IMG/VR virus record: IMGVR_UViG_3300024336_000005
Span: 62,001-126,000 of that record
Source: a virus
Length of the DNA: 64,000 nucleotides
Reading direction: 5' to 3' (one strand)
The notes below the pieces were generated by a model, which saw only the letters and a program-made list of their open reading frames with translations, was not told where the DNA came from and searched no databases. Shown one piece after another: positions 7,468-62,045 of this stretch. The translations under genes were made by a program, and so were the position numbers. Numbering within the stretch: position 1 is the first letter of the stretch; every line of letters begins with the position of its first letter.

Positions 7468-7514
7468 TGGGCATCTGCTTCTACCTTGAGACGAATGCCT
7501 GGTGGCCCCGATGA
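7467..7514 (+). CDS. 15-aa micro-ORF bridging two genes
   Basis: ATG 7467 overlaps the TGA of the previous gene, and its own TGA (7512-7514) overlaps the next ATG (7511). It encodes MGICFYLETNAWWPR. It may only keep ribosomes moving between its neighbours, or it may make a micro-peptide. Confidence 0.35.
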   Translation: MGICFYLETNAWWPR

Positions 7515-7909
7515 AGCACTACAGTGGTTGTGATGGTGGCAGGACATTCAAGTGTCCTGCCTGTGATCAGGAGGAGATGAAGGTGAAGGTTAGCGAGTGT
7601 GTTTGCGGCGCGGTGGTCCTTGGTGGACCGGACTGCTTCTGTCATGGAAGTCAGTGTGAGTGTGAGCGCTGTCTGGAGGCTGATGAGCAGCGTATGCTCG
7701 ACGAAGAGAACATCGACGAAAGTGAGGTTCCCATGAGCAAGAACGATTGCAAGCATGACTACCGAGTGGGCATCGCCTTGGGCCGTGTCGTTGAGGTGCA
7801 TGAGCGTGGTCACTGCTTGACCAACACCGGAGAGGACCTGATGAAGGTGCTGAAGTGCCGCAAGTGTGGTCACTCGGTTGGCAGGAAGTCCTGGTGGTTG
7901 AACCGATGA
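7511..7909 (+). CDS. Cys-rich zinc-ribbon-like protein (132 aa)
   Basis: ATG 7511 is preferred over GTG 7502. Contains CPAC, CVCG, CFC, CECERC and a C-terminal CRKCGH, arranged as several knuckles. The stop overlaps the next start (ATGA). A nucleic-acid-binding or metal-site role is plausible; family unknown. Confidence 0.7.
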   Translation: MKHYSGCDGGRTFKCPACDQEEMKVKVSECVCGAVVLGGPDCFCHGSQCECERCLEADEQRMLDEENIDESEVPMSKNDCKHDYRVGIALGRVVEVHERGHCLTNTGEDLMKVLKCRKCGHSVGRKSWWLNR

Positions 7910-8268
7910 GGAAGATCTGTCGCAACTGTTACTCGATCTGTGGCCGCTGCGCTCGTTGTGAGCGCTTGCGGCTGATGAAGTTGACCAAGAGGAAGATCAA
8001 GAAGAACTCCGAGAAGAGCTCTCGGGTTAAGGAGTTGGGGTGTGGTTGGTCCTTCTCGTTGAAGGACCCGCTCTACTTCAAGGAGGAGGATGAACAGGGG
8101 GAGTTGATGGAGTTCAGCTTCCCCAGGGAGTTCGAGGTGAGCTGCGTCGGGCTGGAGGACGTGGATGTTTTGGCGGCGGCCCTCGATGGCTGCAACGGTG
8201 AGCTCAGCATCGCCGAGGAAGCGGCGGTCTGGGAGTACCGGATCGTCAGCTTGGATGAGGTGGCATGA
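7906..8268 (+). CDS. Small protein with N-terminal Cys motif (120 aa)
   Basis: Starts at ATG 7906 within an ATGA overlap. The N terminus CRNCYSICGRCARC is followed by a lysine-rich patch and an acidic C-terminal domain. Fourth member of the Cys-rich operon. Confidence 0.7.
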   Translation: MRKICRNCYSICGRCARCERLRLMKLTKRKIKKNSEKSSRVKELGCGWSFSLKDPLYFKEEDEQGELMEFSFPREFEVSCVGLEDVDVLAAALDGCNGELSIAEEAAVWEYRIVSLDEVA

Positions 8269-8834
8269 CTGTCTTCACTCGTCGTAGTGTCCACTGGAGT
8301 GGGAAGAGCACGCCTATCGAGGAGCTGCTTAGCTTCGAGATGGACAAGAATGATGGCCGTTTCACTGATGCTGAGAGGAGGAGGATTAAGCTTCTTCAGC
8401 GAGACAAGAAGTGCACCATCTGTGGCTTGGTTCCGACTAAGGCGCTGAATGTGCACTGGGGGCACTCCCATGGTGGCACCAGTCTGCATCTCTTTGGAGA
8501 TGTGAACGGGCGGCTGGAGTGCTTCAACGTAGATCACATCATCCCTAAGGCCTGCGGTGGCAACAACTCCTTCTTCAACTTGCAGCTCACTTGTGAGAGG
8601 TGCAACAGTGAGAAGGGGAACAACTTTGACATGGAGATGGTGCATCCTGAGCGGCTGAAGAGTGGAAGCACTCGACGGGCACACAACGTTCTGGTGCTTC
8701 GACAGAGAGATGAGTTGGCGAAGCAGGTCGCTTCGTTGACTGAGCAGTTGAAAGAGGCCCGTCGGCCTCAAACGTTCCGAGAGGTCCTGGAGAATAAGCT
8801 CCGCCGCCTCATCCCCACTGGTTACTGGAGTTAA
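8265..8834 (+). CDS. HNH endonuclease-like protein (189 aa)
   Basis: Coupled to the upstream gene (ATGA). Residues about 45-110 hold CxxC, then VDHIIPKACGG (the HNH DH core) and CERCN, the treble-clef zinc pattern of HNH nucleases. A C-terminal coiled coil follows. Because it lies in an operon on the coding strand, it may be a phage DNA-processing nuclease rather than a homing enzyme; the sequence cannot decide this. Confidence 0.8.
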   Translation: MTVFTRRSVHWSGKSTPIEELLSFEMDKNDGRFTDAERRRIKLLQRDKKCTICGLVPTKALNVHWGHSHGGTSLHLFGDVNGRLECFNVDHIIPKACGGNNSFFNLQLTCERCNSEKGNNFDMEMVHPERLKSGSTRRAHNVLVLRQRDELAKQVASLTEQLKEARRPQTFREVLENKLRRLIPTGYWS

Positions 8835-8837
8835 GGA

Positions 8838-9668
8838 ATGCGCATTCGTACTGATCTGTTCTTCGCTTCGAAGGTTGAGTTCAATTTGTTCTGGATTGGA
8901 GACAGTGGGTTCTCCTGTGGGGGTGACACCTTGCGGAAGATCTTCGGCCTCAGCGCTACTGGTTGCGGTGAGTCCGCCCACTGGGAGATGGTCTCCTCGA
9001 AGGGAGCAATGGCACAGTTCACGCTGGGTGTCTGCAAGGGTTGCCTGAACAAGGCGGCACCTCAGGCCGAGACCCGCTACTGGGCGGCTGATATCATCAG
9101 TGCCGTGTGGCACCCCAATCATCGGGATGTGGCCTGTGAGGAGCCCGGTTGTGAGGAGACGATCTCCTACAACAGCAAGGCACATGGCAATGTGTGTGCC
9201 TTGCATGGATGCAAGTACATCCATGGGTATCTGAAGGAGATGTACATCGAGAAGGACTTCCTCGAGACGGAGAAGGAGCTGAAGTTGATCTGGGCAATGT
9301 TCCCGGAGAGTCGTCCTCAATACATCGAGGTCAAGAGCGACCGAGATGTGAGGGACTACATGCTGGTCCATGAGGGTGGCATGGAAGAGACCATCATGGT
9401 GGCTGCCAAGCGGTTGCTCAGCAACCCCGATGATCTGGCACACCACTTCCCTCCCTACCGGGAGCTCCGGGAGCTGGGTCGGACGTGCCTCTTACCGTTG
9501 CACCATCCTCGGGTGGTGTACTTGCAGCGACAGTGCGCCCCGGTCTTGGCGGCCATCCAGAGTGGTGACTTCAAGAGCTTGGCTGGGTTCATTCATGAGC
9601 CTCCCGTTGAGGTGGAGTTCTCCACCTTCGCGGCCTTCAACCCTGCTGATGTCATGGAGATGAAGTAA
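8838..9668 (+). CDS. Unknown protein with Cys/His motifs (276 aa)
   Basis: Short spacing after the HNH gene. Contains CKGC, CEEPGCE and CALHGC; an acidic helical C-terminal half follows. Not recognised. Confidence 0.75.
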   Translation: MRIRTDLFFASKVEFNLFWIGDSGFSCGGDTLRKIFGLSATGCGESAHWEMVSSKGAMAQFTLGVCKGCLNKAAPQAETRYWAADIISAVWHPNHRDVACEEPGCEETISYNSKAHGNVCALHGCKYIHGYLKEMYIEKDFLETEKELKLIWAMFPESRPQYIEVKSDRDVRDYMLVHEGGMEETIMVAAKRLLSNPDDLAHHFPPYRELRELGRTCLLPLHHPRVVYLQRQCAPVLAAIQSGDFKSLAGFIHEPPVEVEFSTFAAFNPADVMEMK

Positions 9669-9669
9669 T

Positions 9670-10170
9670 ATGACCATCGAAGATATCATCCTTGAGAAGG
9701 AGTGGCTCATCAAGACGATGGGCCTGTGTCCTTCCTCAATGCTGACCCTCAAGGAGCTGCAGGCCATCCATGCAGGCCCCCTGGACGAACTCATGAACCA
9801 TGAGAAGGAGTGTGAGAAGCTCGAAGAGCAGGAGGTGGTTGCTGCGGCGGAGCCGGAATGGACGCCCAGTGGGGAGGTGAAGTCCTTCCACGCCCTGTGG
9901 GATTTCTGGGAGATGCCTGAGCACATTATTGAGGGGTGGGAGGATGCTCTCATCTGCCTCCTTCACTGGAAGGAGAGCTTCACTGAATATGGCACTCACA
10001 TGCAGTTGAGGTACGATGTGGGCCAGGATTATTGGAGCACCTCTACTGGAGTGAAGAACAAATCCTGGCGGGTTCGACTCCTTGACCCTGAGGTGGAGTG
10101 GCATTCGGCAGTGAAGGAGGTAGAGGCCGTCTTGGCTTGGTTGGCTGAGAGGGAGCTGATCTCCTTCTAG
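9670..10170 (+). CDS. Unknown acidic protein (166 aa)
   Basis: Starts directly after the upstream TAA. Trp-rich and acidic, predicted soluble, no motif recognised. Followed by a strong hairpin. Confidence 0.75.
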   Translation: MTIEDIILEKEWLIKTMGLCPSSMLTLKELQAIHAGPLDELMNHEKECEKLEEQEVVAAAEPEWTPSGEVKSFHALWDFWEMPEHIIEGWEDALICLLHWKESFTEYGTHMQLRYDVGQDYWSTSTGVKNKSWRVRLLDPEVEWHSAVKEVEAVLAWLAERELISF

Positions 10171-10186
10171 GAGCTACATACTTAGG

Positions 10187-10267
10187 CCTCACCACGAATG
10201 TGGTGGGGTCAATAGGATGTAGGTCCGTTGTTCTGGCCCTCTTCCCTTGGAGCCGGCGGAGCCGGCT
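10187..10267 (+). terminator. Two terminator-like hairpins
   Basis: CCTCACCAC (10187-10195) pairs with GTGGTGGGG (10200-10208) across a GAAT loop, flanked by CTACAT/ATGTAG. A second palindromic stem, AGCCGGC/GCCGGCT, lies at 10251-10267. There are no long T-runs, so these may also be processing or RNA-stability hairpins. Confidence 0.55.
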
Positions 10268-10375
10268 GTGTTTACTTTGGATAGTTCTGTGAATGTTAGG
10301 AGGACGTGATTGCTGATAGTTGGATGTTCCTGTTCGTTCCCCTGGAAGTGTAAACTTAGCACACCTCTTGAGGAG

Positions 10376-10495
10376 ATGTGCTCAGGGGCTCAGGCCACTA
10401 TGGCCAAGCTTAGGAGGAAGAGTGAGAAAGGTAAGAAACCTCCTAAAAGAGGTCAGAAGAATAAGAAGCTGGCATCTCGAAGGAGGTCAGCTTAA
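10376..10495 (+). CDS. Tiny basic protein (39 aa)
   Basis: From ATG 10376 (AGGAG touches the start, so the RBS is poor) or ATG 10400. The product is dominated by Lys/Arg. It could be a nucleic-acid-binding peptide; chance translation is not excluded. Confidence 0.3.
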   Translation: MCSGAQATMAKLRRKSEKGKKPPKRGQKNKKLASRRRSA

Positions 10496-10535
10496 GAGCG
10501 GAGGATTCCACCTTCCGGAGCTCATTCTTTGGCAA

Positions 10536-10808
10536 ATGACTAAAGATGAGAATCTGGTGGTGGATGCTATGGACCTTCCCGTTGCTGCCTTGTGCGCAGC
10601 GGGGTTTTCTCAGTCGGATGCTACTGTCATAAACATGGCAGCCTATGCCCTGTTCTTAGATAAGGATTGGGTGGTGTCGATGGAGGAGTATGAGAGCTTC
10701 CCCTCAACTGTTGCAGTAGCGGAGCTGCTGTGGTTAGAGATGGTTGAAGCTGCATTTGAGGTTGATCGTCAGGTCAGCCTCGCCATGTTGGAACTAGTGA
10801 GGAAGTAA
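10536..10808 (+). CDS. Unknown small protein (90 aa)
   Basis: The frame is open from 10320 but the upstream part looks non-coding; ATG 10536 gives a compact, acidic, helical 90-aa protein. The stop overlaps the next ATG (TAATG). The start is uncertain because no good RBS is adjacent. Confidence 0.55.
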   Translation: MTKDENLVVDAMDLPVAALCAAGFSQSDATVINMAAYALFLDKDWVVSMEEYESFPSTVAVAELLWLEMVEAAFEVDRQVSLAMLELVRK

Positions 10809-11116
10809 TGGGATTGAGAGTTCGTCGGTCAGTGATGGGATACTTTAGGGGAGCCTGTTGGTGCATCTCTCCCATTGTTGGGAACATTCTCGAGACTGCT
10901 GAGGAGGAGGAGCTGCAAGAGATGTATGAAGTACAGTTCTTCACAGAGAACTCGGAGCCTTCCCTCACGGAGGCGATGCGTGCCATGAGGGAAAATGTTG
11001 CTTCCCTCATTCGGTACAAGAAGGTCGCCGTTGGTCCCTTCGAGTGGTGTGCCGAAACCGGGAAGTTCGACGATTGGGGGGACTGGATCCCCCGAAAGCT
11101 GGCTGCAAAAGCGTAG
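10808..11116 (+). CDS. Unknown protein (102 aa)
   Basis: Coupled to the preceding gene. A basic start is followed by an acidic central helix and a Trp-rich C terminus. No family recognised. Followed by tandem terminator hairpins. Confidence 0.65.
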   Translation: MGLRVRRSVMGYFRGACWCISPIVGNILETAEEEELQEMYEVQFFTENSEPSLTEAMRAMRENVASLIRYKKVAVGPFEWCAETGKFDDWGDWIPRKLAAKA

Positions 11117-11124
11117 CCTTTGGA

Positions 11125-11169
11125 GCCGACGGAGTCGGCGGGGGAACCGGCTTCGCCGGTTGTCTTTTT
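11125..11169 (+). terminator. Tandem hairpins with T-run
   Basis: GCCGAC/GTCGGC (11125-11139) is followed by AACCGGC/GCCGGTT (11145-11161) with a TTC loop and a run of five T at 11165-11169. This is the clearest intrinsic terminator in the left half. Confidence 0.75.
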
Positions 11170-11310
11170 GTTTGACATCTTTTTAGGGTTTTAGGTTGTT
11201 TTCTTCTTTTACTTTCTCTGTGAGAGGGAGTGAGAGAGAGATTTCCCCCTAATTTGACTGAAAGCATAGCACTTTCCTAAAAGGAAGTGTTGCTTAGAAA
11301 AGAGGTATTT

Positions 11311-11955
11311 GTGAAGGGAATCAAGCTGGTTCTTCAGGACGGTCACAAGAAGATTGCGGCCATCAAGGCACTCCGCGCCGCCCTCCCGTTATGGGTGGGA
11401 CTGAAGAGGTGCAAGGAGTACGTCGAGGCGGGGTTTGTTCCCTTTACCTCGATTGAGGGAGTTGACCTCTGTGAACTCCAGAGGGTACTTTGGGGTTACA
11501 AGGTGGCGCTCTACCTTTGCGACGGAGAAAGGGCCACCCTCGGATGGCTCGTGGACCCCGATAACTTCTGGACGTCCTCATCCCTTCGGCTCACCCCCCC
11601 GGAGGGGATGGTGAGCCGGTACAAGGTGAGGGACATCCCGACCAAGCCGCTGACGGTGGAGATTCAGCTGCCTCCGCAACAGCGTCAGGATGTCCTCAAT
11701 CACGTTGATGATTGTACTGAGACCCGGCTGGCCTGGATTGACAGGCAGTTCGAAGAGATTCGATTCGCCGCGAAGTGCGGCGATTGGACCCTCACCTTGA
11801 CGGGCGACTTCCTCATCATCGGCAACGCCCATCTCGAGCCCCTACAGAGGCTGGTGGACAGCTTCTGCGTTCCGGTCGAGGAGCTCATCGGACAGATGGA
11901 GGCCACCATCAAAGACCTCCGGGAGCAGTTGAAGTCGGCAATGCCGACGGCCTAG
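11311..11955 (+). CDS. Protein with ribosomal bL12 C-terminal-domain-like N terminus
   Basis: GTG 11311 is chosen because AGAGGT lies 5 nt upstream; GTG 11287 is in frame. Residues about 1-60 read KKIAAIKALR...GLKRCKEYVEAG, which matches the bL12 CTD pattern KIxVIKxxR...GLKEAKxLVE. That helix binds translation GTPases in bL12. The remaining 150 aa are unrelated to bL12 (Cys-containing middle, C-terminal coiled coil). Virus-encoded bL12 is known from other phages. Here only the CTD-like fold is seen, without the N-terminal L10-binding dimerisation domain. A role in capturing or modulating ribosomal GTPases is inferred. Confidence 0.65.
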   Translation: MKGIKLVLQDGHKKIAAIKALRAALPLWVGLKRCKEYVEAGFVPFTSIEGVDLCELQRVLWGYKVALYLCDGERATLGWLVDPDNFWTSSSLRLTPPEGMVSRYKVRDIPTKPLTVEIQLPPQQRQDVLNHVDDCTETRLAWIDRQFEEIRFAAKCGDWTLTLTGDFLIIGNAHLEPLQRLVDSFCVPVEELIGQMEATIKDLREQLKSAMPTA

Positions 11956-11998
11956 TTGTTGTTGTTGAAAGCTTAGTGGAAATAGGAAGGAAGAAAAA

Positions 11999-12445
11999 AT
12001 GAACCAGCCGAACTTCATCGCCCTCACCTCCCGCATCTACCAGGCCAAGGGGCCCAAGGTCTCGACCATCGAGGATGTCAAGACGGGGCATGTGCGCATC
12101 ATGTCCTCGGACGTTGAGCCCGTGGACAGCCGGGATGTGTGGGCCGAGCAGTCCAAGGCCTACGAGGACTACCGCATCACCGTGAAGGCCTCCATCGAGG
12201 AGGAGGTGACCATCGAGGAGGCCAATGCGGACTCCCTCCAGGAGGCCTTGAGCACGGCCATCGCCAATGGCGACGAGGTGATGGCCGAGGGCCTCAAGAC
12301 GGCACTGGAGAACTCTGAGAAGGGCATCGTGGAGCTCAAGGTCTCCGAGGACTTGCTGGTCAAGGCGGAAGCGGAGCGCCTCGCCACCAACGCCATCAAC
12401 ATCTTCGAGCACAAGGTGGCCTGCTTCCAGGCTCTCGTCGGCTAG
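11999..12445 (+). CDS. Unknown acidic protein (148 aa)
   Basis: A good RBS (AGGAAGG) precedes ATG 11999. The protein is alanine/glutamate-rich and mostly helical. Not recognised. It is separated from the next gene by a 400-bp structured gap. Confidence 0.8.
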   Translation: MNQPNFIALTSRIYQAKGPKVSTIEDVKTGHVRIMSSDVEPVDSRDVWAEQSKAYEDYRITVKASIEEEVTIEEANADSLQEALSTAIANGDEVMAEGLKTALENSEKGIVELKVSEDLLVKAEAERLATNAINIFEHKVACFQALVG

Positions 12446-12842
12446 GGCAAGTTCACATTCACCGGAGTAGGAAGATGCTGGACTAGGCGGAGGGAAACCG
12501 CAGAACCTCTTTTACTTTACTTAGATATTAGTTCAAAATAAAGGCGCTGAGACTGTGAATCGCATCAGAGACGACCCTTAGGGGATTGGAGGGCGGCCAG
12601 AGGTCGCCACACTTTTGAATTAAAGTCTTATATGTGACTGGTTGCCGACTCGCCGGAGCAGAGTCGTGAGCTACAAGGCCTCCAATGTTGGAGGTTGGGT
12701 GCGAAGAGGTTGGACGCCTCATAACCGTAGGCCCAGGAACTGTTTCAGTTCGTGTGAACGAAGTGAACGGGGAACCGAGTAGATGGTATTCATTGTTGCC
12801 CTACCGAAGACGTGTGAGGGCACTTGAAGAAAGGATAAGTCC
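12446..12842 (+). ncRNA. Intergenic region with several stem-loops, possible RNA
   Basis: No gene is supported. Stems include GACTC/GAGTC near 12648-12666, a CCTCCAA/TTGGAGG hairpin near 12678-12693 and GTTC/GAAC near 12750. The string GGGTGCGAAG after the second stem recurs after a CTCCAA/TTGGAG stem at about 20010-20090, hinting at a related RNA. The CCTCC/GGAGG pairing also resembles anti-SD/SD sequestration. Confidence 0.3.
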
Positions 12843-13640
12843 ATGTTCGATTTGCAGAACGAGAAGACCGCCGTTGAGACCACCGCCCCGTTCCGGAAGG
12901 TGCTCGCCACCGGCGAGGTCCAGCCCGTGTCGTTCGCGGGATTCGTCGAGAAGACGGAGGATGGTGGCTACCAGTTGCAGGAGACGCTGGACATCGAGAC
13001 CTGCATCGGGGTGCTGGGCTTCGCCGCTGCGGTGAAGTTCAACCAGCACACCAACGACGATGGCACGACCACCATCCGGGTGTCGGCCATCCAGGAGGGT
13101 AACACGAGCAAGAAGCGGCAGCGTGGTGACAGCCAGCGCACGAGCAAGGGGGCGAGTGAGTTCGGTCTCGGGACGTGGGTCTTCGCGACTCGGCTCGAGG
13201 TGCCGGGGCTGGATGTCGGCTCCATCCACACCTGCTACGGGACCATGGGCGAGGCGACGGTCTCCACCCCCAATGGCCCGGCCTTCACCGCCTCCAAGCC
13301 CGCCTTCGCGGGTGCGTTCGAGCAGGAGGTGACCAAGGCGGTGCAGCTGATGCTCTCGTCCTTCGTGGGCGCCGCCAGTGGTGGTGAGAGCATCGTGACC
13401 AACGACGAGGGGCTCATGGACACCCTCCGTTGGTTGCAGCGTGTGGTGCCGAACAAGTTCGGTCGTCTGGTCTTCCAGGGGGCCGCCTTCGAGGGGGCAA
13501 CCAACACCAGCCGCGTGAAGGCCGTCATCAACGGCAAGGAGGTCCAGGTGGCGCAGTCCACCAAGGGCTCCAACCGCGTCAAGACCGCCTCCAAGGCCAC
13601 CGCCTCGGACCTCGACGCCCTCGCGGCGCTCGAGGCCTAA
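12843..13640 (+). CDS. Unknown protein (265 aa)
   Basis: ATG 12843 follows AAGGATAAG. Two mixed alpha/beta halves flank a basic linker (SKKRQRGDSQRTSKG, about residues 88-102). No family recognised. A hairpin (GAGTCG/CGACTC near 13665-13691) follows and may end transcription. Confidence 0.8.
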   Translation: MFDLQNEKTAVETTAPFRKVLATGEVQPVSFAGFVEKTEDGGYQLQETLDIETCIGVLGFAAAVKFNQHTNDDGTTTIRVSAIQEGNTSKKRQRGDSQRTSKGASEFGLGTWVFATRLEVPGLDVGSIHTCYGTMGEATVSTPNGPAFTASKPAFAGAFEQEVTKAVQLMLSSFVGAASGGESIVTNDEGLMDTLRWLQRVVPNKFGRLVFQGAAFEGATNTSRVKAVINGKEVQVAQSTKGSNRVKTASKATASDLDALAALEA

Positions 13641-13809
13641 TCCCACCTCCCTGAAGTCCGGTGAGTCGTTCCCTACGGGTTGAGCGACTCCCGGCAACCT
13701 CCCCTTGTTTATCTTTGTTGTTGATATAGGTGTGTATGAACGTAGTGTACGACTGTTGTTGTACCCTATGGGCATGCACACCTGTGTATGTTGGCAGACA
13801 GGAGTGTGT

Positions 13810-14379
13810 ATGAAGATTGCCATTATTGGCACCGCTGGTAGGAGCAAAGCTCCGCAGCATCGGATGACACGGAAATTGTATGGCAGCATGTTGGATGCTG
13901 CCTGGCAGATGATGTTGAAGAACTGTGAGGATTGGAGTGATGTGACACTTCAGTCTGGTGGAGCCGCGTGGGCTGACCATGTGGCTGTGAGCGCCTATAA
14001 GCTGGCATTGGTGTGTGGAAAGCCCTTCAAGGGGCTGAACCTGTACCTGCCGGCCCCCTTTGATGGGGACAAGTACGCCGCCACTAAGGCGGGTGGTATC
14101 TCCAACTACTATCATCGGCTTTTCACGCAGGCCGTTGGAACAGACACTCTTGTGGGGTTGGCTGATGTCATGCAGCTGCCCGGTGTGATGGTGGATGTTG
14201 GAGTGGGGTTCCATCAGCGGAACCTCGAAGTTGGGAAGGCTGACGTCCTGTTGGCCTTTACCTGGGGCGAAGGCAGCGGCCCCGCCGACGGTGGCACGAA
14301 GCACTGTTGGAAAAATTCTCATGCGCCGACGAAGGTGCACTTCAAGCTCTCTGAGCTGAACGGACAGTCCGATGAGTGA
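13810..14379 (+). CDS. SLOG/Rossmann-like nucleotide-binding protein (189 aa)
   Basis: ATG 13810 has AGGAG 6-10 nt upstream; the frame is open further 5' but without coding character. N-terminal MKIAIIGTAGR and a later GGAAWADH helix cap resemble SLOG/LOG-type Rossmann folds; DVLLAFTWGEG...GGT near residue 155 matches the second glycine motif. Such domains bind nucleotides or nucleotide-like ligands. It overlaps the start of the next large gene. Substrate unknown. Confidence 0.6.
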   Translation: MKIAIIGTAGRSKAPQHRMTRKLYGSMLDAAWQMMLKNCEDWSDVTLQSGGAAWADHVAVSAYKLALVCGKPFKGLNLYLPAPFDGDKYAATKAGGISNYYHRLFTQAVGTDTLVGLADVMQLPGVMVDVGVGFHQRNLEVGKADVLLAFTWGEGSGPADGGTKHCWKNSHAPTKVHFKLSELNGQSDE

Positions 14380-17300
14380 TACTCTTTTTGGTAAGAACGC
14401 TGACGAGAAGTCCCTCCTCGAGGAGGCAGGCGACGGTGTTGTGGACAACAGCACCGTCATCGACCACGACAAGAAGACTGACCGCATTCTCGCCGATACG
14501 GCCGTGGTTCGCGGTGCCGCCATGTTTGTCCAGACGGACGACTTGTGGCACCACGGGGTCAGTCAGCACGGGCTGGCCCGTTCGAACACCCGCTACGGGG
14601 AGACCACCCAGTTGGTCTTGGTCCCGGAGGGTTCCGATGGCTGTGAGACCATCATCATCCACAGTCTCCGTGGTGGAACTCAGGAGGTCACCGTTAAGCG
14701 CCGGGCCCTGCCGATGCAGGAGGAGGTGGTCGAGCGAGTCCTCGCCGCCACCGATGAGGCACTTGCGCCCTACATGCGGAAGTACTCCTGTCGCACGCGG
14801 GAGCAGTTGGTGGGGAGGTGGCCTGCGCAAGGCCGTGGCCCCATCTACATCGACAGTGTCGCCACGCGCTTGACGCACAACGACTGGGTCGATGACCTGG
14901 GAGACGTGCTGAGCGATGAGCTGCTGCGCTCGATGCAGCGGTACATGAAGGCCATGAGACAGGACATCCCGCCGAGTCAGGATGATGTGGAAATCATCCA
15001 CTGGGCCATGGGCGAGGCTGGCTTGAAGCCCGTTGAGCTCTACCAGATGTTGCTCATGCAGCAAGAGACCCGACAGCGGCTGCTGGTCCTTCTCGGTGAG
15101 GACGAGTTGAAGCGGGACTCCGCCCTCAACTCGTACGACCCTTCTCCGGCCATCCCGGACGGGTGGGGCTTGCCCTCCTCCTTGGAGGAGCCGATGAAGT
15201 GCAAGAAGGCGTGGAATGCCTTCCTCAAGTCCGGTGGCGAGGTGGCGCTCTCGTTGGACCACATCGTCTTCGATGACGGCGATGGCTTCGACCGGGTGAC
15301 CATTGAGGGCCTTGCGGCCATCAAGATGACCCGAGATGGAGTGAACCGTCTGGTCAAGGCTCACAGTGGCATCACGCTGCTGGAGACTACGGCCAACAAT
15401 GGTCAGTTCCCGCCGTCCCATCGGGAGTTGACCGCCGCAGTGGTGGCCGTTCACGAGAAGTGGGCGGACTCCTTCGAAGCGTGGCAGGAGCGACGTACGC
15501 CCAGTGTCCGCTGGGTGGCTCTGGGCAACCTCACGGGTGGCATCGGTGGCGGTGGGGGTGACCTCAACGGCACCGATGAGTTCGACGTCGACGCGGACAT
15601 CCGTCCGAAGCCCGGCTTCCAGGACATCGACCCGGTGGAGTTGAAGAACCCGGAGGAGGCCTGGCTCAAGAAGCAGGTCATGGGGATGTCCACTCCGGAC
15701 CCCATCACTCAGTTCTTTGGGGACACCGGGTCGTTCGCTTCGGACCTACCCATTGGCCGTCGGAAGATTGGGGAGGAAGTGTACCTCCCCGGAGGCCACC
15801 CGTTGGCTCAGGGCATCATGGACATCATGGCGGCTGCCAATGGCCAGCGGGACTACGTCTCCTTGGGTCTGACGGATGACGCCTCCTCGATGGTTCGCAT
15901 GGAGTGGCCGAAGAACCTCGTGGAGACCTCCACGATGATGATGCCGACCATGGCGGGCGACAAGGTGGAGGTGGAGGTGTTGGTCTTCCACCCCGTCTAT
16001 GAGGGGGTGGACTTGTTCAACCTCATCCTCAGCACCGATTGGGTGGACCACGCGGGCCAGGTGAAGGACTTCTTCGCCGACTACACTGTCAAGGTGAATG
16101 GCGTCAAGCAGTGGGGGCTCAACCAGCAGGTGAGCCCTGGGCAGAAGGTGATGGAGGCGTCCTATACCGACGACGAGGGCCAGTACTGGTTCAAGTCGGT
16201 GGACCTCGAGATTGAGCCCGGTGCTCGGGTGGCCTTCGACGCGGGCATGCCGGTGGGGGAGGTCATCGAGACCGTGCGGGACGGTCAGACCTTCTGCCAG
16301 GCCCTCGTTCGGGTCTGGCCGGCGAAGGTCAATGTCGGCTACCGTCATCGGTTGCACGAGATTGATGCGAATGGCGAGGCCGTTCCCATCGACGAGAACG
16401 ACCCTCTGTTGGCCATCTACGGCATCGAGCAGCAGGGAGATGTGCTCTGGCACGTGATGTTCAAGAGCCGCTTGGACTTCCTCATCACCAGCCTGGGCTG
16501 CACCAAGGTGCCGGTCCTGGCCCTGGTGGAGACGGGCGAGGAGGCCATCCCGATGGTGGTCGAGCAGTACGCGAAGGTGCACTTCCCGGCGCTGTTCAAC
16601 TGGCTCTCGCTGCTGAGCGAGAACTACCACGAGGCCGTCTCCGACATGACCGAGTGGTCGGAGGGGGACGGTGAGGACCTGCTGCGGCTGGTCACCGAGG
16701 AACTGATGACCATCCAGACGCTGGCCTTGGAGCTCATCGTCGAGGATAACATCGGTTGCGTGGCCGACTACATGGACGACGTCAACGTGGCATTGGGCGA
16801 TGCTTGCATCGGAACCTCCAGCAAGTTCCCTGACCGGAACGGCAACGAGACGAGCGCCTATGGTGCCCTCCTCGTTGGGAACACGGGGCGTCTCTACCCC
16901 CTGTTGGACAGCCTGAAGCCCGGTCCGCAGAACGTGTTCGACCTCCCGGAGGAGGCGCACACGAACATCACCAAGATGTTCAAGGCCATGGGCTACCTGT
17001 ACAACGACCGGAGGCCCTTGGGTGCCGACAGGTTGCAGCAGATGGTGGGAGAGCAGTTCTTCTTCACCCATCCCCTGCGTCGTGCTCCGCGTCGTGTGAA
17101 CGACCGCTGGCACCGGGCGGCGAAGGCCGTGACGTACACCAAGGACCCGAGCCTGTTCAGCTCGGGCATGGTCGGCAACTTGGTGAGCCAGTTGAGCGCC
17201 GCGATGTTCCCCATCAACGATGGTGGGCTGAACTTGTTCCACCCCTCGGAGGAGCACATGAAGGCGGCCAACTGGGACTATGAGAAGGCGATGCGTCTCC

Positions 17301-17761
17301 ACCTCATCGAAATCTTCCCGGAGGACCTCTGGGGTCGGACGGCGGCGAGTCGCGCTCACCGCTACCTGACGCGGTTCAACCAGGACCGTGGGTTCTTCAA
17401 GGAGGACGCCAAGGCGCTGCGTTGGCTCATCTGCAACATCTTCAACTTCGAGGACCGCACCTTGGTCCATCCCACCTTGTCGGGTGGGGAGGCCATCAAG
17501 GCCTTCGGTAGGGGTGTGTTGGTTGAGAGTTTTGTGAAGGGTTGGGTGAACGAGAGGAACGAGGACAAGAAGGCACAGCGCTTGACCGCCCTGGACCGTC
17601 GAGTCGCGCTCCTCACCCCCACGCCGCCCCTCCTCTTCCGTTTCTTGGCGCTCTTGGAGAAGAACGTCGAGTTGGAGGCCTTCAACCGGGCCTTGATGCA
17701 GGCCGCCCCGAAGTTGGGCCCCTTGGGGGTCCAGCACATCCGCAACCGTCAGAACGGTTGA
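14372..17761 (+). CDS. Large unknown protein (1129 aa)
   Basis: The start overlaps the end of the SLOG-like gene by 8 nt. Soluble and mixed-fold, with a Gly-rich linker near residues 390-398 and an Asp-rich stretch after it. No TM segment or enzyme motif recognised. The size and the preceding abundant-looking gene would fit a virion or injected protein, but nothing in the sequence proves this. Confidence 0.85.
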   Translation: MSDTLFGKNADEKSLLEEAGDGVVDNSTVIDHDKKTDRILADTAVVRGAAMFVQTDDLWHHGVSQHGLARSNTRYGETTQLVLVPEGSDGCETIIIHSLRGGTQEVTVKRRALPMQEEVVERVLAATDEALAPYMRKYSCRTREQLVGRWPAQGRGPIYIDSVATRLTHNDWVDDLGDVLSDELLRSMQRYMKAMRQDIPPSQDDVEIIHWAMGEAGLKPVELYQMLLMQQETRQRLLVLLGEDELKRDSALNSYDPSPAIPDGWGLPSSLEEPMKCKKAWNAFLKSGGEVALSLDHIVFDDGDGFDRVTIEGLAAIKMTRDGVNRLVKAHSGITLLETTANNGQFPPSHRELTAAVVAVHEKWADSFEAWQERRTPSVRWVALGNLTGGIGGGGGDLNGTDEFDVDADIRPKPGFQDIDPVELKNPEEAWLKKQVMGMSTPDPITQFFGDTGSFASDLPIGRRKIGEEVYLPGGHPLAQGIMDIMAAANGQRDYVSLGLTDDASSMVRMEWPKNLVETSTMMMPTMAGDKVEVEVLVFHPVYEGVDLFNLILSTDWVDHAGQVKDFFADYTVKVNGVKQWGLNQQVSPGQKVMEASYTDDEGQYWFKSVDLEIEPGARVAFDAGMPVGEVIETVRDGQTFCQALVRVWPAKVNVGYRHRLHEIDANGEAVPIDENDPLLAIYGIEQQGDVLWHVMFKSRLDFLITSLGCTKVPVLALVETGEEAIPMVVEQYAKVHFPALFNWLSLLSENYHEAVSDMTEWSEGDGEDLLRLVTEELMTIQTLALELIVEDNIGCVADYMDDVNVALGDACIGTSSKFPDRNGNETSAYGALLVGNTGRLYPLLDSLKPGPQNVFDLPEEAHTNITKMFKAMGYLYNDRRPLGADRLQQMVGEQFFFTHPLRRAPRRVNDRWHRAAKAVTYTKDPSLFSSGMVGNLVSQLSAAMFPINDGGLNLFHPSEEHMKAANWDYEKAMRLHLIEIFPEDLWGRTAASRAHRYLTRFNQDRGFFKEDAKALRWLICNIFNFEDRTLVHPTLSGGEAIKAFGRGVLVESFVKGWVNERNEDKKAQRLTALDRRVALLTPTPPLLFRFLALLEKNVELEAFNRALMQAAPKLGPLGVQHIRNRQNG

Positions 17762-29225: not shown

Positions 29226-29361
29226 TAGGAGTTGAGATCCAGTTCCCGTCGGGGTGCCTACTGGTTAAACAAAAAGGCTCGATGAGTAGACTTGTGTCTG
29301 GAGAGACTCCGCCGGTTCGAGGCAGACGGTGCTCAAAGCCTCCCTTTTCTTGGAGAGTGAG

Positions 29362-30105
29362 ATGGTTAAACTAATAGGGCATGTCCCTGAGACAAAGAGG
29401 GGTCCCTTTAGGCGCAATACAATGGAAGCTAAGGTAATGGAAACTCGACAGGAACGTCATGAGAGACATCTCAGGACGATGAGAGCGTATTTGGCAGGAG
29501 GGGAGAATTTCCTGGCCGCCAAGGCTCTCCAATTTGCAAAGAATCTAATGACAGGACTAAGGAAGGATGGGGAAACTCCAGCCTTCCACCATCCCCTGTC
29601 GGTGGCTCGCTACTTACGAGCTCACCGTCGTAGTCTTATTTATGGAGAGGAGACCATTGCGGCTGCCTTTCTTCATGATATCCTCGAAGACTTTGGTGAT
29701 ACTGTCACTAGAGAGCAACTTAGAGACCTGTTTGGGGAAAGAGTAGCGACTGCCGTATGGGCTCTCAGCAAGAAGAGCAACGGAACGTCAAAGACTCCCG
29801 ATACCTACTTCATGGGCATTGCATCTAATGAGATTGCATCTGTTGTGAAGGCTGTAGATCGATTGCACAATCTCCACACCATGGAGGGCGTGTTCTCTGT
29901 TGAGAAGCAATTGGACTACATCAAAGAAGCAAGAGATAGATTTATCCCCATGCTTATCGAAGCAGGAGATAGGTTTCCCGAACAGTTTGATGTCTATGAA
30001 AACCTCAAGATGAACTTGAGGCTTCAAACCATCCCGATGGAACGACTGTGCGAAGCTTTGATGAGGCTAAAAGATGAAGTTCGAAGCGGTGATTGTCGAG
30101 GGTGA
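29362..30105 (+). CDS. RelA/SpoT-type HD hydrolase (MESH1-like)
   Basis: ATG 29362 follows GGAGAG. HD-family motifs in order: FHHPLSVARYL, AAFLHDILEDF and KAVDRLHNLHTM. These match the (p)ppGpp pyrophosphohydrolase domain of SpoT/RSH and stand-alone MESH1 enzymes, all metal ligands being present. No synthetase domain. Expected reaction: removal of pyrophosphate from (p)ppGpp, damping the host stringent response. DatZ-type dNTPases also carry HD but lack the DRLHN motif. The 3' end overlaps the next gene. Confidence 0.8.
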   Translation: MVKLIGHVPETKRGPFRRNTMEAKVMETRQERHERHLRTMRAYLAGGENFLAAKALQFAKNLMTGLRKDGETPAFHHPLSVARYLRAHRRSLIYGEETIAAAFLHDILEDFGDTVTREQLRDLFGERVATAVWALSKKSNGTSKTPDTYFMGIASNEIASVVKAVDRLHNLHTMEGVFSVEKQLDYIKEARDRFIPMLIEAGDRFPEQFDVYENLKMNLRLQTIPMERLCEALMRLKDEVRSGDCRG

Positions 30106-33652: not shown

Positions 33653-34711
33653 ATGAGTGATTATCCAGATGGAACCATTATTGTAGGTCTCCAGGATGGA
33701 GACGAAAGCAAGGGAAAGGTGGCGGCGGCTCTTTGTTCGCTACCGCAAGTGACCCATTGTGTTCGCTATAGTGGTGGACAGAATGCAGGCCATGTTTTCT
33801 ACAAGGATGGCCTACAGGTTGTCACTCATATCATTCCCTCTGGGATTGTATATGGGAAGGTCTCGGTGATTGGTCCTGGCTGCGCCTTCTCTGAGAAGGG
33901 CTTCTGGGCTGAGCTAGAAGACATTTGTGATGCACTGGGGGAGACCATGTTGAATCTCTCTCGCTTGATCAAGATCTCCCCTGCTGCTCATATCGTCCAG
34001 GACAAGCACATCGTTTTGGATGAGGCGACAGACAAGATTGGATCTACCAAGAGAGGGATCGCCCCAGTCTATGCCGATAAGGCTATGAGGACGGGCATCC
34101 GAGCCGAGAGCATTCCAAGCCTAAAGCCTTTCTTGTGGGATACGACTAAGCTCAATGACCCAAAGAATGTCATCGTATTTGAAGGGGCTCAAGGCTTTGG
34201 CCTTGATCCTGATGTAGGAGATTATCCCTATATCACCAGCTCCTCCTCTCTCCCTGGTGCGATCAACAATGTTGGTGTGCCCATCTGGGCAATCAATAAG
34301 ATTGTTGGAGTTGCAAAGCTCTATGCGACCTATGTTGGGACCAAGGAATTCGAGCCAGATCTAGAGATTTTCTCAAAGCTTCGTGAGCTCGGAGGGGAGT
34401 ATGGCTCGACCACAGGCCGTCCTCGACAGTGCAACTGGTTGAATCTTGATACTCTCATCACTGCTATTCGAACCTGTGGTTGTACTACGGTCGTCTTCAG
34501 CAAGTGCGACATCATTGAACAGCTTGGCGTTTTCAAGTTGATTGATGGTGGTACAGTTCGAGAGTTCGGGAATATGGCTGGCATGATTGCTCACATTAAG
34601 CGAGAGCTTAAGGAGGAGGCACCAAGTACAAGTCTAATCTTTAGTGGCAGTCAATACACAGTTGAAGATGACTATGGCCATCTTGCTGAAGAGCCGATGG
34701 GAGAGATTTGA
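33653..34711 (+). CDS. Adenylosuccinate synthetase homologue (PurA/PurZ family, 352 aa)
   Basis: GLQDGDESKGK (P-loop region with the Asp that PurA uses as catalytic base), SGGQNAGH, HIIPSG, STKRGIAPVYADK, VFEGAQG and GSTTGRPR follow the family order. The length (352 aa) is shorter than bacterial PurA (about 430) and like viral/archaeal forms. PurA joins aspartate to IMP; viral PurZ acts on dGMP to make 2-aminoadenine DNA, usually with the Asp replaced. Here Asp is kept but a Ser follows Glu. Which reaction it catalyses is unresolved. Confidence 0.85.
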   Translation: MSDYPDGTIIVGLQDGDESKGKVAAALCSLPQVTHCVRYSGGQNAGHVFYKDGLQVVTHIIPSGIVYGKVSVIGPGCAFSEKGFWAELEDICDALGETMLNLSRLIKISPAAHIVQDKHIVLDEATDKIGSTKRGIAPVYADKAMRTGIRAESIPSLKPFLWDTTKLNDPKNVIVFEGAQGFGLDPDVGDYPYITSSSSLPGAINNVGVPIWAINKIVGVAKLYATYVGTKEFEPDLEIFSKLRELGGEYGSTTGRPRQCNWLNLDTLITAIRTCGCTTVVFSKCDIIEQLGVFKLIDGGTVREFGNMAGMIAHIKRELKEEAPSTSLIFSGSQYTVEDDYGHLAEEPMGEI

Positions 34712-34784: not shown

Positions 34785-36146
34785 ATGTACCAAGCAATTG
34801 TTGCCAACATTCACACCCGTCCACATCCGGGAGCTGATCGAATTCAGCTAGGAACTGTATGTGGCCATCAGGTTGTATGCGGGCTTGACATTGCTGATGG
34901 TACTCTCGGTGTGTTCTTTCCTTGCGATGGCCAGCTAAGTCATGACTTCTGTGTGGCCAATGATGAGTACCCTCGGCTTGATGAACAGGGGAAGAAGGTC
35001 GGTGGCGGATTCATCAATCCTAAGAACCGTCGCGTAAAGGCACAAAGCTTTCGTGGTGAAAAGTCGGATGGCTACTGGGTTCCAATGGATAAGCTCATTA
35101 AGTGGGCAAATCATGTTTGGCGCGAGGATGACAAGGGAGACCATGTCCTCTTGTCCAACCGTGTGCAGAGCCTTGTAGAAGGTGACACCTTTGATTCCGT
35201 TGGCGATGTGCCTTTGTGTAACAAGTATGTAACTGAGAAGACCCTTAAGGCTCTTCAGAATCAGGCCAAGCAGGCTCGCAAGACTCATACTCAGTTCGCT
35301 CAGCATATTGATACCAAGCAGTTCCGATACAACATTGGAAACATCCCGGAGGGTTCCATTGTATGGATATCTGAAAAGCTTCACGGTACTAGCGGTCGCT
35401 ATGGGTACGTTCAAGCTCTTCGTGAGCTCGGTGGCCGTTTTAATGCTTTTGTTCGCAGGGCTTTTGATTGGTGCGCTGATAAGCTTGGTCTTGATGTAAG
35501 CCCTAAGTATGAACATGTTATGGGCTCACGAAGGGTTGAGCTCTCTGCTCAGTCAGAAGGGTTTTACGGCTCGATAGATTTCCGTGCAAATGTAGCAAAC
35601 AAGTTGAAGGGAAATCTCCTCAAGGGTGAGTGCATTTATGGAGAGCTAGTGGGTTGGACTGGTCCTGATTCTTTGATCATGGGCCGCCACTCAACCAAGA
35701 AGCTCGGCAAGGAGCTTCGCAAGCAGTACGGAGAAGAGGTCACCTATACTTATGGACAGCCAAACGGTTGTTCTGAGTTCTTCGTTTATCGAATCACTCG
35801 TGTTGGCCCAGATGGTCAGACGATTGAGCTCGGTGAGCGTGAGATGCGGGCAAGGGCGAGGGTCCTCGGCTTCAAGACTCCAGAGCTCTTTGCGGGGCCG
35901 ATGGTAGTTCACGACTATGCTGATGATAAGTGGGTCGATGGTGGCAAGACGCTCATGCAGGTCGTGGAAGCCTACCTAAATGGACCATCGATTGAAGACT
36001 CACGACATCCTCGAGAGGGCGTCGTGATTAGGGTTGACAGGCCTGACGGGACTACCATCTGGCTCAAGGACAAGAACCATCCGTTCAAGGTAATGGAGGG
36101 TATCGCTAAGGATTCCGGCGAAGCAGACATGGAAGAAAGCTCATGA
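34785..36146 (+). CDS. Rnl5-like RNA ligase (453 aa)
   Basis: The N-terminal OB-like domain (1-150: GADRIQLGTV, VFFPCDGQLS) is followed by the nucleotidyltransferase core: motif I EKLHGTS with adenylated Lys198, motif IV EGVVIR near residue 405 and motif V WLKDKNHPFK near 425. The OB-then-ligase order matches the Deinococcus DraRnl/Rnl5 group, which seals RNA 3'-OH/5'-PO4 ends in nicked duplexes. With the PNK-like and 2H-like proteins it could form an RNA repair or tRNA-splicing pathway. Confidence 0.85.
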   Translation: MYQAIVANIHTRPHPGADRIQLGTVCGHQVVCGLDIADGTLGVFFPCDGQLSHDFCVANDEYPRLDEQGKKVGGGFINPKNRRVKAQSFRGEKSDGYWVPMDKLIKWANHVWREDDKGDHVLLSNRVQSLVEGDTFDSVGDVPLCNKYVTEKTLKALQNQAKQARKTHTQFAQHIDTKQFRYNIGNIPEGSIVWISEKLHGTSGRYGYVQALRELGGRFNAFVRRAFDWCADKLGLDVSPKYEHVMGSRRVELSAQSEGFYGSIDFRANVANKLKGNLLKGECIYGELVGWTGPDSLIMGRHSTKKLGKELRKQYGEEVTYTYGQPNGCSEFFVYRITRVGPDGQTIELGEREMRARARVLGFKTPELFAGPMVVHDYADDKWVDGGKTLMQVVEAYLNGPSIEDSRHPREGVVIRVDRPDGTTIWLKDKNHPFKVMEGIAKDSGEADMEESS

Positions 36147-40772: not shown

Positions 40773-42416
40773 ATGAACTACGGTAAGACTGTTAGCAACG
40801 CTATCAACAATGGTCCAGTTTCTCAGCCTATCATCGGTAGGCCCGAGATGGTAAAGAACAGCACTGAGGGCTTTGTCTTCAACACCACTTCTGAGGCAGC
40901 GCTTGAGCGCTTCCTCATTCTTGGCACTGAAGGCGGCACTTACTATGCCAGCGAGAGCCGAGCTACAGTTGATGCGGCAAAGAATGTCATCGAGATGGCT
41001 GTTGCTGGCAACGTAGATGTAGTCAGTACCATCATCAAGGTCGCTACTGCTCGTCCCTCTCGTGCGCCAAAGATGGAGCCTTCCTTGTTTGCTCTTGCAG
41101 TTTGTACCGCAAAGGGCACCCCCGAGGTAAAAGCTAAGGCGCTCAGCGCGCTGAGCGCGGTTTGCCGTATCCCCACTCATCTGTTTACCTTTCTTCAGGC
41201 CCACAAGGATCTGGGAGGCAAGACCGGTGGGCGCAGCTTCCAGCGAGCCCTACAGAATTGGTATCTTGAGAAGGATCCCTCTAAGCTGGCTTATCAGGTT
41301 GTGAAGTATCAGGGGAGGAATGGCTGGACTCACCGTGATGTTCTTCGGCTTGCCCGCCCTAAGGCTCAGACCCCTGAGCAGAACTCTATTTTGAGTTGGG
41401 CTGTGAATGGTTCGCTGCCTCTGGCAGTAAGTTCTGAAGCGGGTGCTTATCTTGTGGCGGCGAATGAGCTGCTGCGAGGGGAGCCGACGAAGCAGCGTGC
41501 AATCAACTTGATTGAGTCTCATGGGTTCACCCATGAGATGGTTCCGACTAAGCTTCAGAAGGACCCTGATATCTGGGCAGCTTTGCTTCCCCGCATGCCT
41601 ATCAATGCAATGGTTCGCAACCTTGGTCGGATGACTGCCAATGGTCTGATTGTTCCATTCAGTGCCACAACTCAGAGCGTGGTGGAGAAGCTTGAGAATG
41701 TGGATGCCCTTCGCAAGAGCCGCATCCATCCGCTCAACGTTTACGTGGCCTTGCGTACCTATCAGCAGGGCAAGGGCACTCGAGGTTCGTTGACTTGGCG
41801 TCCTGATGCTCAGATCTTGAGCGCACTAGAAGGAGCATTCTACAATGCTTTCGGGAATGTAGAACCGACTGGTAAGCGCTTCATGGTGGGCCTGGATGTA
41901 AGCGGCAGCATGGGTGGATTCTATGGCTACGGCTATAACAGTACTGTGAACCAGACTGGCCTTATGGGGATTCCTGGGTTTACGCCTTATGAGGCAGAAA
42001 CCCTTATGTCCCTTTTGGTTGCAAAGACTGAGAAGCAGACCTTCTTTGGTGGGTTTTCAGACAACTTCACTCCCCTTGCTATCAACTCCCGTGATAACAT
42101 GAGCTCGGCTCTTCAGAAGATCCGATCACTCCGCATGGGTTCCACTAGGATTGCTGCTCCGATGGAGTATGCCACCAAGAACAGGATTCCGGTGGATTGC
42201 TTCCAGATCTACACCGACAATGAAGTGAACATGGGCGGACATCCTTGTCAGACCCTTGAGAAGTATCGTCAGGCTACTGGCATCAATGCGGCCATGGTCG
42301 TATGCGCTATGACCTCTACGAATTTCACTGTGGCCGACCCGAAGGATCCGAAGCAGCTTGATGTTGTTGGATTTGACACGGCAGTGCCAGCTTTGATTCG
42401 ACAGCTTTTGGTGTAA
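40773..42416 (+). CDS. Ro60/Rsr RNA-binding protein, TROVE + vWFA (547 aa)
   Basis: The N-terminal two thirds is an all-helical TROVE-type domain; the C-terminal third is a von Willebrand A domain with MIDAS D375-x-S-x-S (DVSGSMG) and a later YTDNE. Ro60 proteins form a ring that holds misfolded RNA ends in its hole and Y RNA on its rim. In Deinococcus, Rsr helps 23S rRNA maturation and forms a Y-RNA/PNPase degradation machine. Phage Ro homologues have been described. A 23S-like RNA segment lies about 500 bp downstream. Confidence 0.88.
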   Translation: MNYGKTVSNAINNGPVSQPIIGRPEMVKNSTEGFVFNTTSEAALERFLILGTEGGTYYASESRATVDAAKNVIEMAVAGNVDVVSTIIKVATARPSRAPKMEPSLFALAVCTAKGTPEVKAKALSALSAVCRIPTHLFTFLQAHKDLGGKTGGRSFQRALQNWYLEKDPSKLAYQVVKYQGRNGWTHRDVLRLARPKAQTPEQNSILSWAVNGSLPLAVSSEAGAYLVAANELLRGEPTKQRAINLIESHGFTHEMVPTKLQKDPDIWAALLPRMPINAMVRNLGRMTANGLIVPFSATTQSVVEKLENVDALRKSRIHPLNVYVALRTYQQGKGTRGSLTWRPDAQILSALEGAFYNAFGNVEPTGKRFMVGLDVSGSMGGFYGYGYNSTVNQTGLMGIPGFTPYEAETLMSLLVAKTEKQTFFGGFSDNFTPLAINSRDNMSSALQKIRSLRMGSTRIAAPMEYATKNRIPVDCFQIYTDNEVNMGGHPCQTLEKYRQATGINAAMVVCAMTSTNFTVADPKDPKQLDVVGFDTAVPALIRQLLV

Positions 42417-60491: not shown

Positions 60492-62045
60492 ATGGGATCA
60501 TCTAACGTTACGTGTGGTATTACTCATGCTTCAATTGGTGGAGGAGATGAGTGTGTATTAATTCCTCTTCATGCTTCGAAGAAGCCTGAAGATCCTTTTA
60601 ATTATACTCCTTATGCAGCACTCCCTGTTGTTATCCGAGGTAGGTATGATGACTACGGAAGGATTGAGGACATCGTAGAGACTGCAGGCACTAAGGTTCT
60701 TGAAAAAGAATTTGGGATGCCTATTAAGAGGTTTGCAGACCTCCTCGTTGAGGGGAGAGATGATTACATTGGTGAGTTTGGTACACTGATGAGCCCAGAT
60801 CTTGTGGACCTATTGAAAGACTATAGTCCCTTTGATCAGGAGCATCTCAAAGCTTGCGGCTTTGAGCCTTATGAGCTAGACCGAGAGGCTTACCTTTCGC
60901 CTGAGCTGGTAGACCAGGAGAGCTGGTGGAGTCATCCCCGATTGGAAAAGATTCTTGTACGCCTTAGGTCTTGGGTCTCCGGAGGGGAAACGCTGCCAGA
61001 AAAACTATGGAACAGTTACCAGATTTCCTCACCCTGGCGCAACCATGAAGACGAACGTCCCTGCTTGACCAGTCTAACGATTGCTTGGGAGAGTGGTCAT
61101 AAGGTGATGGGACTTCTTAACAACTTGTATCAAAATACAGGCATCCATCTGGCCTATAAGGAGAAGAACTCTGGTGTTTTTCATAGGCTGAATGAGATGG
61201 ACTACGTTTGGGTACATGCAACAGCCTTTGATGGACTTTCTAAGCCCCTCCCACATGAGGGGCAGGGGGGCTCCTGGTGGGGCGAAGACAGTTGGATCAG
61301 TGGAATTAAGCCTGACAGCTTAGAGATGCTCGGCTTTGTTTATGACAAAGAAGCCTCTGAAAAGAGAAGGGCTGTCAAGCCCAAGGGGCCGACGGAAAAG
61401 CATCGTTGGTGGATGATCTATCGTCATCCTGAATGTACAACGCATGTTGCTGTAAGCGATGGCAGATGGAGTCACATCATTGAAGAGGGTGATAACACCT
61501 ATCATGGCACGATGAACCTATTCAGCCTTAGGCTTACTCAATTTGTTCAGGCATGGAAGAAGGCTACAAAGAAACGCCTTGTTGTTCCTAAGGAAGAATA
61601 TTCTCTCTGTTCTTATAGAAAGAACTTCCGTCACGCTCGCGCTGCCGTCTTAGCCTTTGAAAAGGACCAGGCAGAGGAGCTTGAATTTTACGAAAGCTCT
61701 GGCCTTGATGAACAAGCCATCGCTCTTAAGAGAATGAGGGCGGAGTATAACAGCATCTGGAGACGCGATAACATTCGAGAGTATCCTTCAATTTCCTTCG
61801 AGCCAGAGTGGCCACGTTGGTCATTCATGAAGGACTTGTTTGCTGGTGTGATTAAGGATGGCACCCTCGAAGATGAGTGTGTGCAACTACAGTGGCTGCG
61901 AGCGAACCTTGGGATGCTCGCACATCCTCTTAGGCCGATGCCCTATAATGGACCTCAGTGTGGTGACTACCACATGCTTAAGGCCTTTGGTGATATCATT
62001 GTAGAGATTGCAGAAGACAAGCTAAAAGAAAGAGATGACTGGTAA
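60492..62045 (+). CDS. Large unknown protein (517 aa)
   Basis: Preceded by AT-rich DNA resembling that at 49281. Soluble, Trp/Tyr-rich, no enzyme motif recognised. Similar ideas of size exist for phage proteins of unknown function, but no family is claimed. The stop overlaps the next start. Confidence 0.8.
   Translation: MGSSNVTCGITHASIGGGDECVLIPLHASKKPEDPFNYTPYAALPVVIRGRYDDYGRIEDIVETAGTKVLEKEFGMPIKRFADLLVEGRDDYIGEFGTLMSPDLVDLLKDYSPFDQEHLKACGFEPYELDREAYLSPELVDQESWWSHPRLEKILVRLRSWVSGGETLPEKLWNSYQISSPWRNHEDERPCLTSLTIAWESGHKVMGLLNNLYQNTGIHLAYKEKNSGVFHRLNEMDYVWVHATAFDGLSKPLPHEGQGGSWWGEDSWISGIKPDSLEMLGFVYDKEASEKRRAVKPKGPTEKHRWWMIYRHPECTTHVAVSDGRWSHIIEEGDNTYHGTMNLFSLRLTQFVQAWKKATKKRLVVPKEEYSLCSYRKNFRHARAAVLAFEKDQAEELEFYESSGLDEQAIALKRMRAEYNSIWRRDNIREYPSISFEPEWPRWSFMKDLFAGVIKDGTLEDECVQLQWLRANLGMLAHPLRPMPYNGPQCGDYHMLKAFGDIIVEIAEDKLKERDDW

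Follow-up and report, generated by a model that had tools for sequence, protein, structure and literature searches.

Known bL12 domains in phages and the locus described here

In cellular bL12, helices 4 and 5 make up the GTPase site, and the C-terminal domain (CTD) binds IF2, EF-Tu, EF-G and RF3 (PMC6753160); EF-Tu binding by the enterobacterial protein depends on both K65 and K70 (PMC10602876). Phages were reported by Mizuno et al. in 2019 to carry bL12 CTDs, both loose and embedded, with an HHsearch E-value of 1e-5 or lower as the domain criterion (PMC6375957), and phage bL12 domains are likewise named in a later annotation paper (PMC12509530). The single phage bL12-domain protein to have been tested is that of Salmonella phage FSL SP-076: ribosome fractions yielded a peptide, and ribosome purification with the tagged protein failed (PMC6375957).

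The locus described here lies in a stretch of 64,000 nucleotides (the window; positions 62,001 to 126,000 of the IMG/VR virus record IMGVR_UViG_3300024336_000005, which has 204,008 bases, contains a terminase gene and derives from a large uncultured phage). It encodes a 214-aa protein that is a new, unusually diverged example of the phage bL12-domain proteins already described. It has in common with the proteins of Mizuno et al. a bL12 CTD-like domain, which occupies varying positions in these proteins, and the conservation of the factor-contact residues. However, it is more diverged, falling below the Pfam cut-off, it has a loop insertion, two invariant residues are replaced, and the carrier to which the domain is attached has no known relative. 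The features of the locus are as follows.

11133..11161, plus strand: terminator-like stem-loop in the interval between the bL12-like ORF and its upstream neighbour (weak)
11300..11305, plus strand: Shine-Dalgarno-like AAGAGG, 5 nt ahead of the GTG start, read in the sequence
11311..11955, plus strand: ORF of 214 aa with a GTG start and a TAG stop, read in the sequence and the same in a second viral contig
11314..11526, plus strand: bL12-CTD-like domain, residues ~2-72, beta-alpha-alpha-beta-alpha-beta, from profile, alignment and model
11350..11427, plus strand: helix hairpin with the conserved motif, residues 14-39, inside the bL12-CTD-like domain
11389..11397, plus strand: inter-helix loop L27-V29, holding two residues that cellular bL12 lacks, from alignments
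11530..11955, plus strand: C-terminal region, residues 74-214 and the stop codon, with no detectable family

The second viral contig corresponds to the same DNA, with 0 differences across window positions 7500-16500. An alternative in-frame GTG is present upstream, at 11287, but it is poorly spaced from any ribosome-binding site. The search for a sigma-70 promoter upstream of the ORF found none, and the stem-loop was the one structure found where 1.3 would be expected by chance. We attribute the minus-strand ORFs that overlap the gene to its high third-position GC.

Sequence relationships of the N-terminal domain

The preliminary description of this gene proposed that the protein begins with a bL12 CTD-like domain carrying the motif KIxxIKxxR...GLKxxKxYVE. 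The motif is present at residues 14-39 as KIAAIKALR...GLKRCKEYVE, and the proposed relationship was borne out by the profile searches. PF00542 was the sole Pfam family matched by the 214-aa protein in a scan allowing E-values up to 1 (E 0.012, 16.3 bits), and the domain alone gave a slightly better match (E 0.0042, 17.8 bits), both scores being below the family cut-off of 25.9 bits. The score of the protein against an HMM that we built from 80 cellular bL12 CTDs was 15.8 bits (E 7e-7 as a single test), and residues 1-75, shuffled 100,000 times, never reached this value (best shuffle 13.2). With this HMM, the protein ranked first among the 813 stop-to-stop frames of the window, the runner-up scoring 8.2 bits. 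Residues 2-72 align along the bL12 CTD from the first strand to the last. Sequence matches in the PDB were non-significant (E 0.35-0.74), with bL12 accounting for four of the five.

The best PHROG for the protein was phrog_26927 (E 0.0017), which E. coli bL12 also matches (1.3e-10) and for which this gene gave the only match in the virus record. Two phage proteins provide intermediate sequences. The first (L016) is 49% identical to the 214-aa protein over 37 aa (BLASTP, 7e-7) and itself passes the PF00542 cut-off (30.4 versus 25.9 bits), thus linking the 214-aa protein to the bL12 CTD family. The second (L015) is 39% identical over 54 aa (5e-7), and this alignment extends past the motif into the third helix. 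A chance resemblance in an unrelated protein, which would be in keeping with the weak family-level E-values and the poor fold predicted from the single sequence, is therefore quite improbable given the shuffling result, the connection of the phage relatives to PF00542 and the extent of the L015 similarity. Residues ~2-72 thus very probably correspond to a diverged homologue of the bL12 CTD, with a match that is weak by standard cut-offs but well above chance.

Conserved and changed residues

Nine of the positions between 62 and 88 (bL12 numbering) are invariant in 78 cellular CTDs, and seven of these are kept in the phage domain (G62, K65, K70, G79, L80, K81 and K84), together with I69, R73, V87 and E88. 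The phage protein has in common with cellular bL12 (L7/L12, PF00542) the predicted strand and helix order of the CTD and the equivalents of K65, K70, R73, G79, L80, K81 and K84. The charged GTPase-contact residues K65, K70, R73 and K84 correspond to K14, K19, R22 and K35, and residues 11-40 carry a net charge of +5. The two invariant residues that are replaced are E82 (R33) and A83 (C34); neither is known to be a requirement of the fold. Since these two residues are replaced and the inter-helix loop is two residues longer than in cellular bL12, the surface that contacts the factors may have changed or may no longer function. Binding of the phage domain to translation factors nevertheless appears plausible from the residues retained.

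Predicted fold

A comparison of the predicted fold with the bL12 CTD had been proposed as a check. The AlphaFold model of the full protein alone had too low a confidence to be usable (mean pLDDT 41.7, with the N-terminal half below 50); its strand and helix order fits the bL12 CTD, but we do not consider this to be evidence. When the domain was modelled with an alignment of 30 viral and cellular CTD rows, bL12 included, the mean pLDDT rose to 75, with a strand-helix-helix-strand-helix order and a weak last strand. In Foldseek searches of the PDB with this model, bL12 CTDs occupied ranks 1 to 4 (1ctf and the bL12 in 8phj among them), with TM-scores of 0.54-0.58 and E-values no better than 0.046, and ClpS structures followed closely behind.

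The position of ClpS raises the possibility that the protein is a ClpS-type adaptor, of a similar fold class but acting in proteolysis instead of translation. VIA-align Z-scores were effectively tied (up to 6.7 for bL12 and up to 6.2 for ClpS). However, the identity in structural alignments was 25-32% for bacterial bL12 and 3-16% for ClpS, and the Pfam scan that recovered PF00542, with E-values up to 1, recovered no ClpS family. ClpS thus resembles the phage domain in fold class, with no sequence match and a different function, and we consider an adaptor of this type extremely unlikely. The fold evidence is consistent with a bL12 CTD, the sequence favouring bL12 over ClpS, but there is some circularity in this support, as bL12 sequences were among the rows of the alignment. 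The proposed check leaned towards the bL12 CTD, the top Foldseek matches being bL12, with two caveats: the model depended on an alignment that included bL12, and ClpS scores are similar.

The missing N-terminal domain and the C-terminal carrier

The 214-aa protein differs from cellular bL12 in that the CTD comes first and the N-terminal domain (NTD), responsible for dimerisation and uL10 binding, is absent. As had been suggested, no trace of this domain was detected: our own NTD profile gave a score of -0.8 bits for the protein, and no PF16320 domain was found in the virus record. Searches of the record also detected no PF00542 domain above threshold and no bS21.

The preliminary description regarded the remainder of the protein as unrelated to bL12, and this held for the ~140 residues from 74 to 214, for which Pfam and PHROG searches gave no match and no relative was found beyond the identical contig. 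The region ends with a predicted long helix (189-210) in a low-confidence model. Close relatives of the 214-aa protein were not found in the phage collection (tblastn; a chance match with E=8 only) or in bacterial genomes, and the viral contigs yielded the identical contig only. Short DNA matches to phages Mitti and Young were traced, and their proteins are unrelated.

bL12 CTDs in other viral proteins

The collection search recovered 119 viral stretches encoding bL12-domain relatives, of which 80 were fetched, by patterns containing part of the helix 4/5 motif. The bL12 NTD was present in 12 of the 80 fetched loci; in the remainder, with the start codon crudely set as the first ATG, the domain was N-terminal in 14 and C-terminal in 41, and in the other 13 it was in the middle, formed most of the protein or was cut. 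The search suggests that bL12 CTDs are found widely in phages, most of them without the uL10-binding half. Two IMG/VR proteins of ~185 aa (L044 and L051) have the layout of the 214-aa protein, a tail coming after a domain that spans residues ~3-73, but the cellular profile gives their hairpins far higher scores (41.1 and 35.6 bits, versus 15.8).

Several other proteins may be of interest for annotation. Five unannotated PHROGs (26927, 5819, 23470, 35727 and 26483) are matched by the E. coli bL12 CTD and could be labelled bL12 CTD-like. In enterobacterial phages of ~75 kb, bL12 CTDs lie within large proteins (L009 1381-3465 and L007 994-3093), and in EK8 the protein is labelled RIIB and its gene comes after rIIA. 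Two Rhizobium phage proteins (L003 1969-3111 and L004 1962-3098) end in a bL12-like helix hairpin only, and that of L003 passes the PF00542 cut-off.

The distribution of these domains bears on the main rival explanation, according to which the phage domain is a true descendant of the bL12 CTD that has lost factor binding, the hairpin serving as a generic docking module for a phage partner or another host partner. The viral copies occur at the N-terminus, at the C-terminus and internally in unrelated proteins, one of them annotated as RIIB, several seem to retain the hairpin only, and the copy in the 214-aa protein lacks E82 and A83 and has the loop insertion. However, the residues kept most consistently, both across phages and in the 214-aa protein, are the charged GTPase positions of helices 4 and 5, an argument for continued use of this surface, with the caveat that the patterns used for fetching already held part of the motif. 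We regard the loss of factor binding as possible but rather unlikely.

Genome context

We identified 26 predicted tRNA genes between window positions 22334 and 63725, all on the plus strand and covering most amino acids. No phage translational GTPase (PF00009) with which the domain could pair was found in either viral record. The window also encodes a Ro60/TROVE protein with a vWA domain (40773-42416; PF05731, PF25045; phrog_850) and an RNA ligase with a possible OB-fold start (34785-36146; PF09414, phrog_968). An adenylosuccinate synthetase-like protein (33653-34711) is encoded 3.5 kb downstream of an HD-domain protein (29329-30105), and the two might belong to a modified-purine pathway of the Z-genome type.

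Searches against Pfam and PHROG gave no convincing family match for the large neighbouring proteins, and the 1,129-aa neighbour had no match in the phage collection. The genes at 31-2724, 11999-12445, 12843-13640 and 14372-17761 have a third-position GC of 0.86-0.95 and almost no family matches; they may be virion genes from a group of phages that is little known.

Possible role of the phage domain

In the absence of a uL10-binding domain, the protein would not be expected to enter the ribosomal stalk by the usual route, and, since most of the viral copies also lack this half, stalk incorporation is unlikely as a general explanation. With the charges of the factor site kept and the ribosome anchor gone, the binding of translational GTPases off the stalk would be the most likely role. 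We tentatively suggest, by analogy with cellular bL12 and at somewhat less than even chances, that the phage domain binds one or more of EF-Tu, EF-G, IF2 and RF3; the preliminary description had likewise raised recruitment or sequestration of the first three as a possibility. In such a mechanism, a free, phage-encoded bL12 CTD would ride on a phage-specific carrier (residues 74-214), and its hairpin would bind EF-Tu, EF-G, IF2 or RF3 off the ribosomal stalk during infection, in the setting of a phage with its own tRNA set. The bound GTPases might either be taken from host bL12 by competition or be brought to a partner of the C-terminal region.

Translation factors are not the only proteins that dock on the stalk: a title cited in PMC11980606 refers to a CARF-RelE nuclease captured by the ribosomal stalk (PDB 8phj). 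The phage domain might accordingly serve as a decoy, occupying defence or toxin proteins that dock on the stalk (the CARF-RelE nuclease Cami1, for example), since a stalk-captured nuclease could conceivably be titrated by a free CTD; this is pure inference from the possible binding partners of the CTD, and we consider it very improbable. In a broader and still improbable reading, free phage bL12 CTDs in general would be decoys or re-routing handles pulling stalk-docking proteins off the ribosome, whether these are defence nucleases captured by the stalk or translational GTPases, and the orphan C-terminal region would determine where they are taken.

The 214-aa protein is one diverged example, which settles nothing by itself. 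If phage bL12 CTDs do bind translational GTPases off the ribosome, these domains would represent a common and little-studied route by which phages steer host translation.
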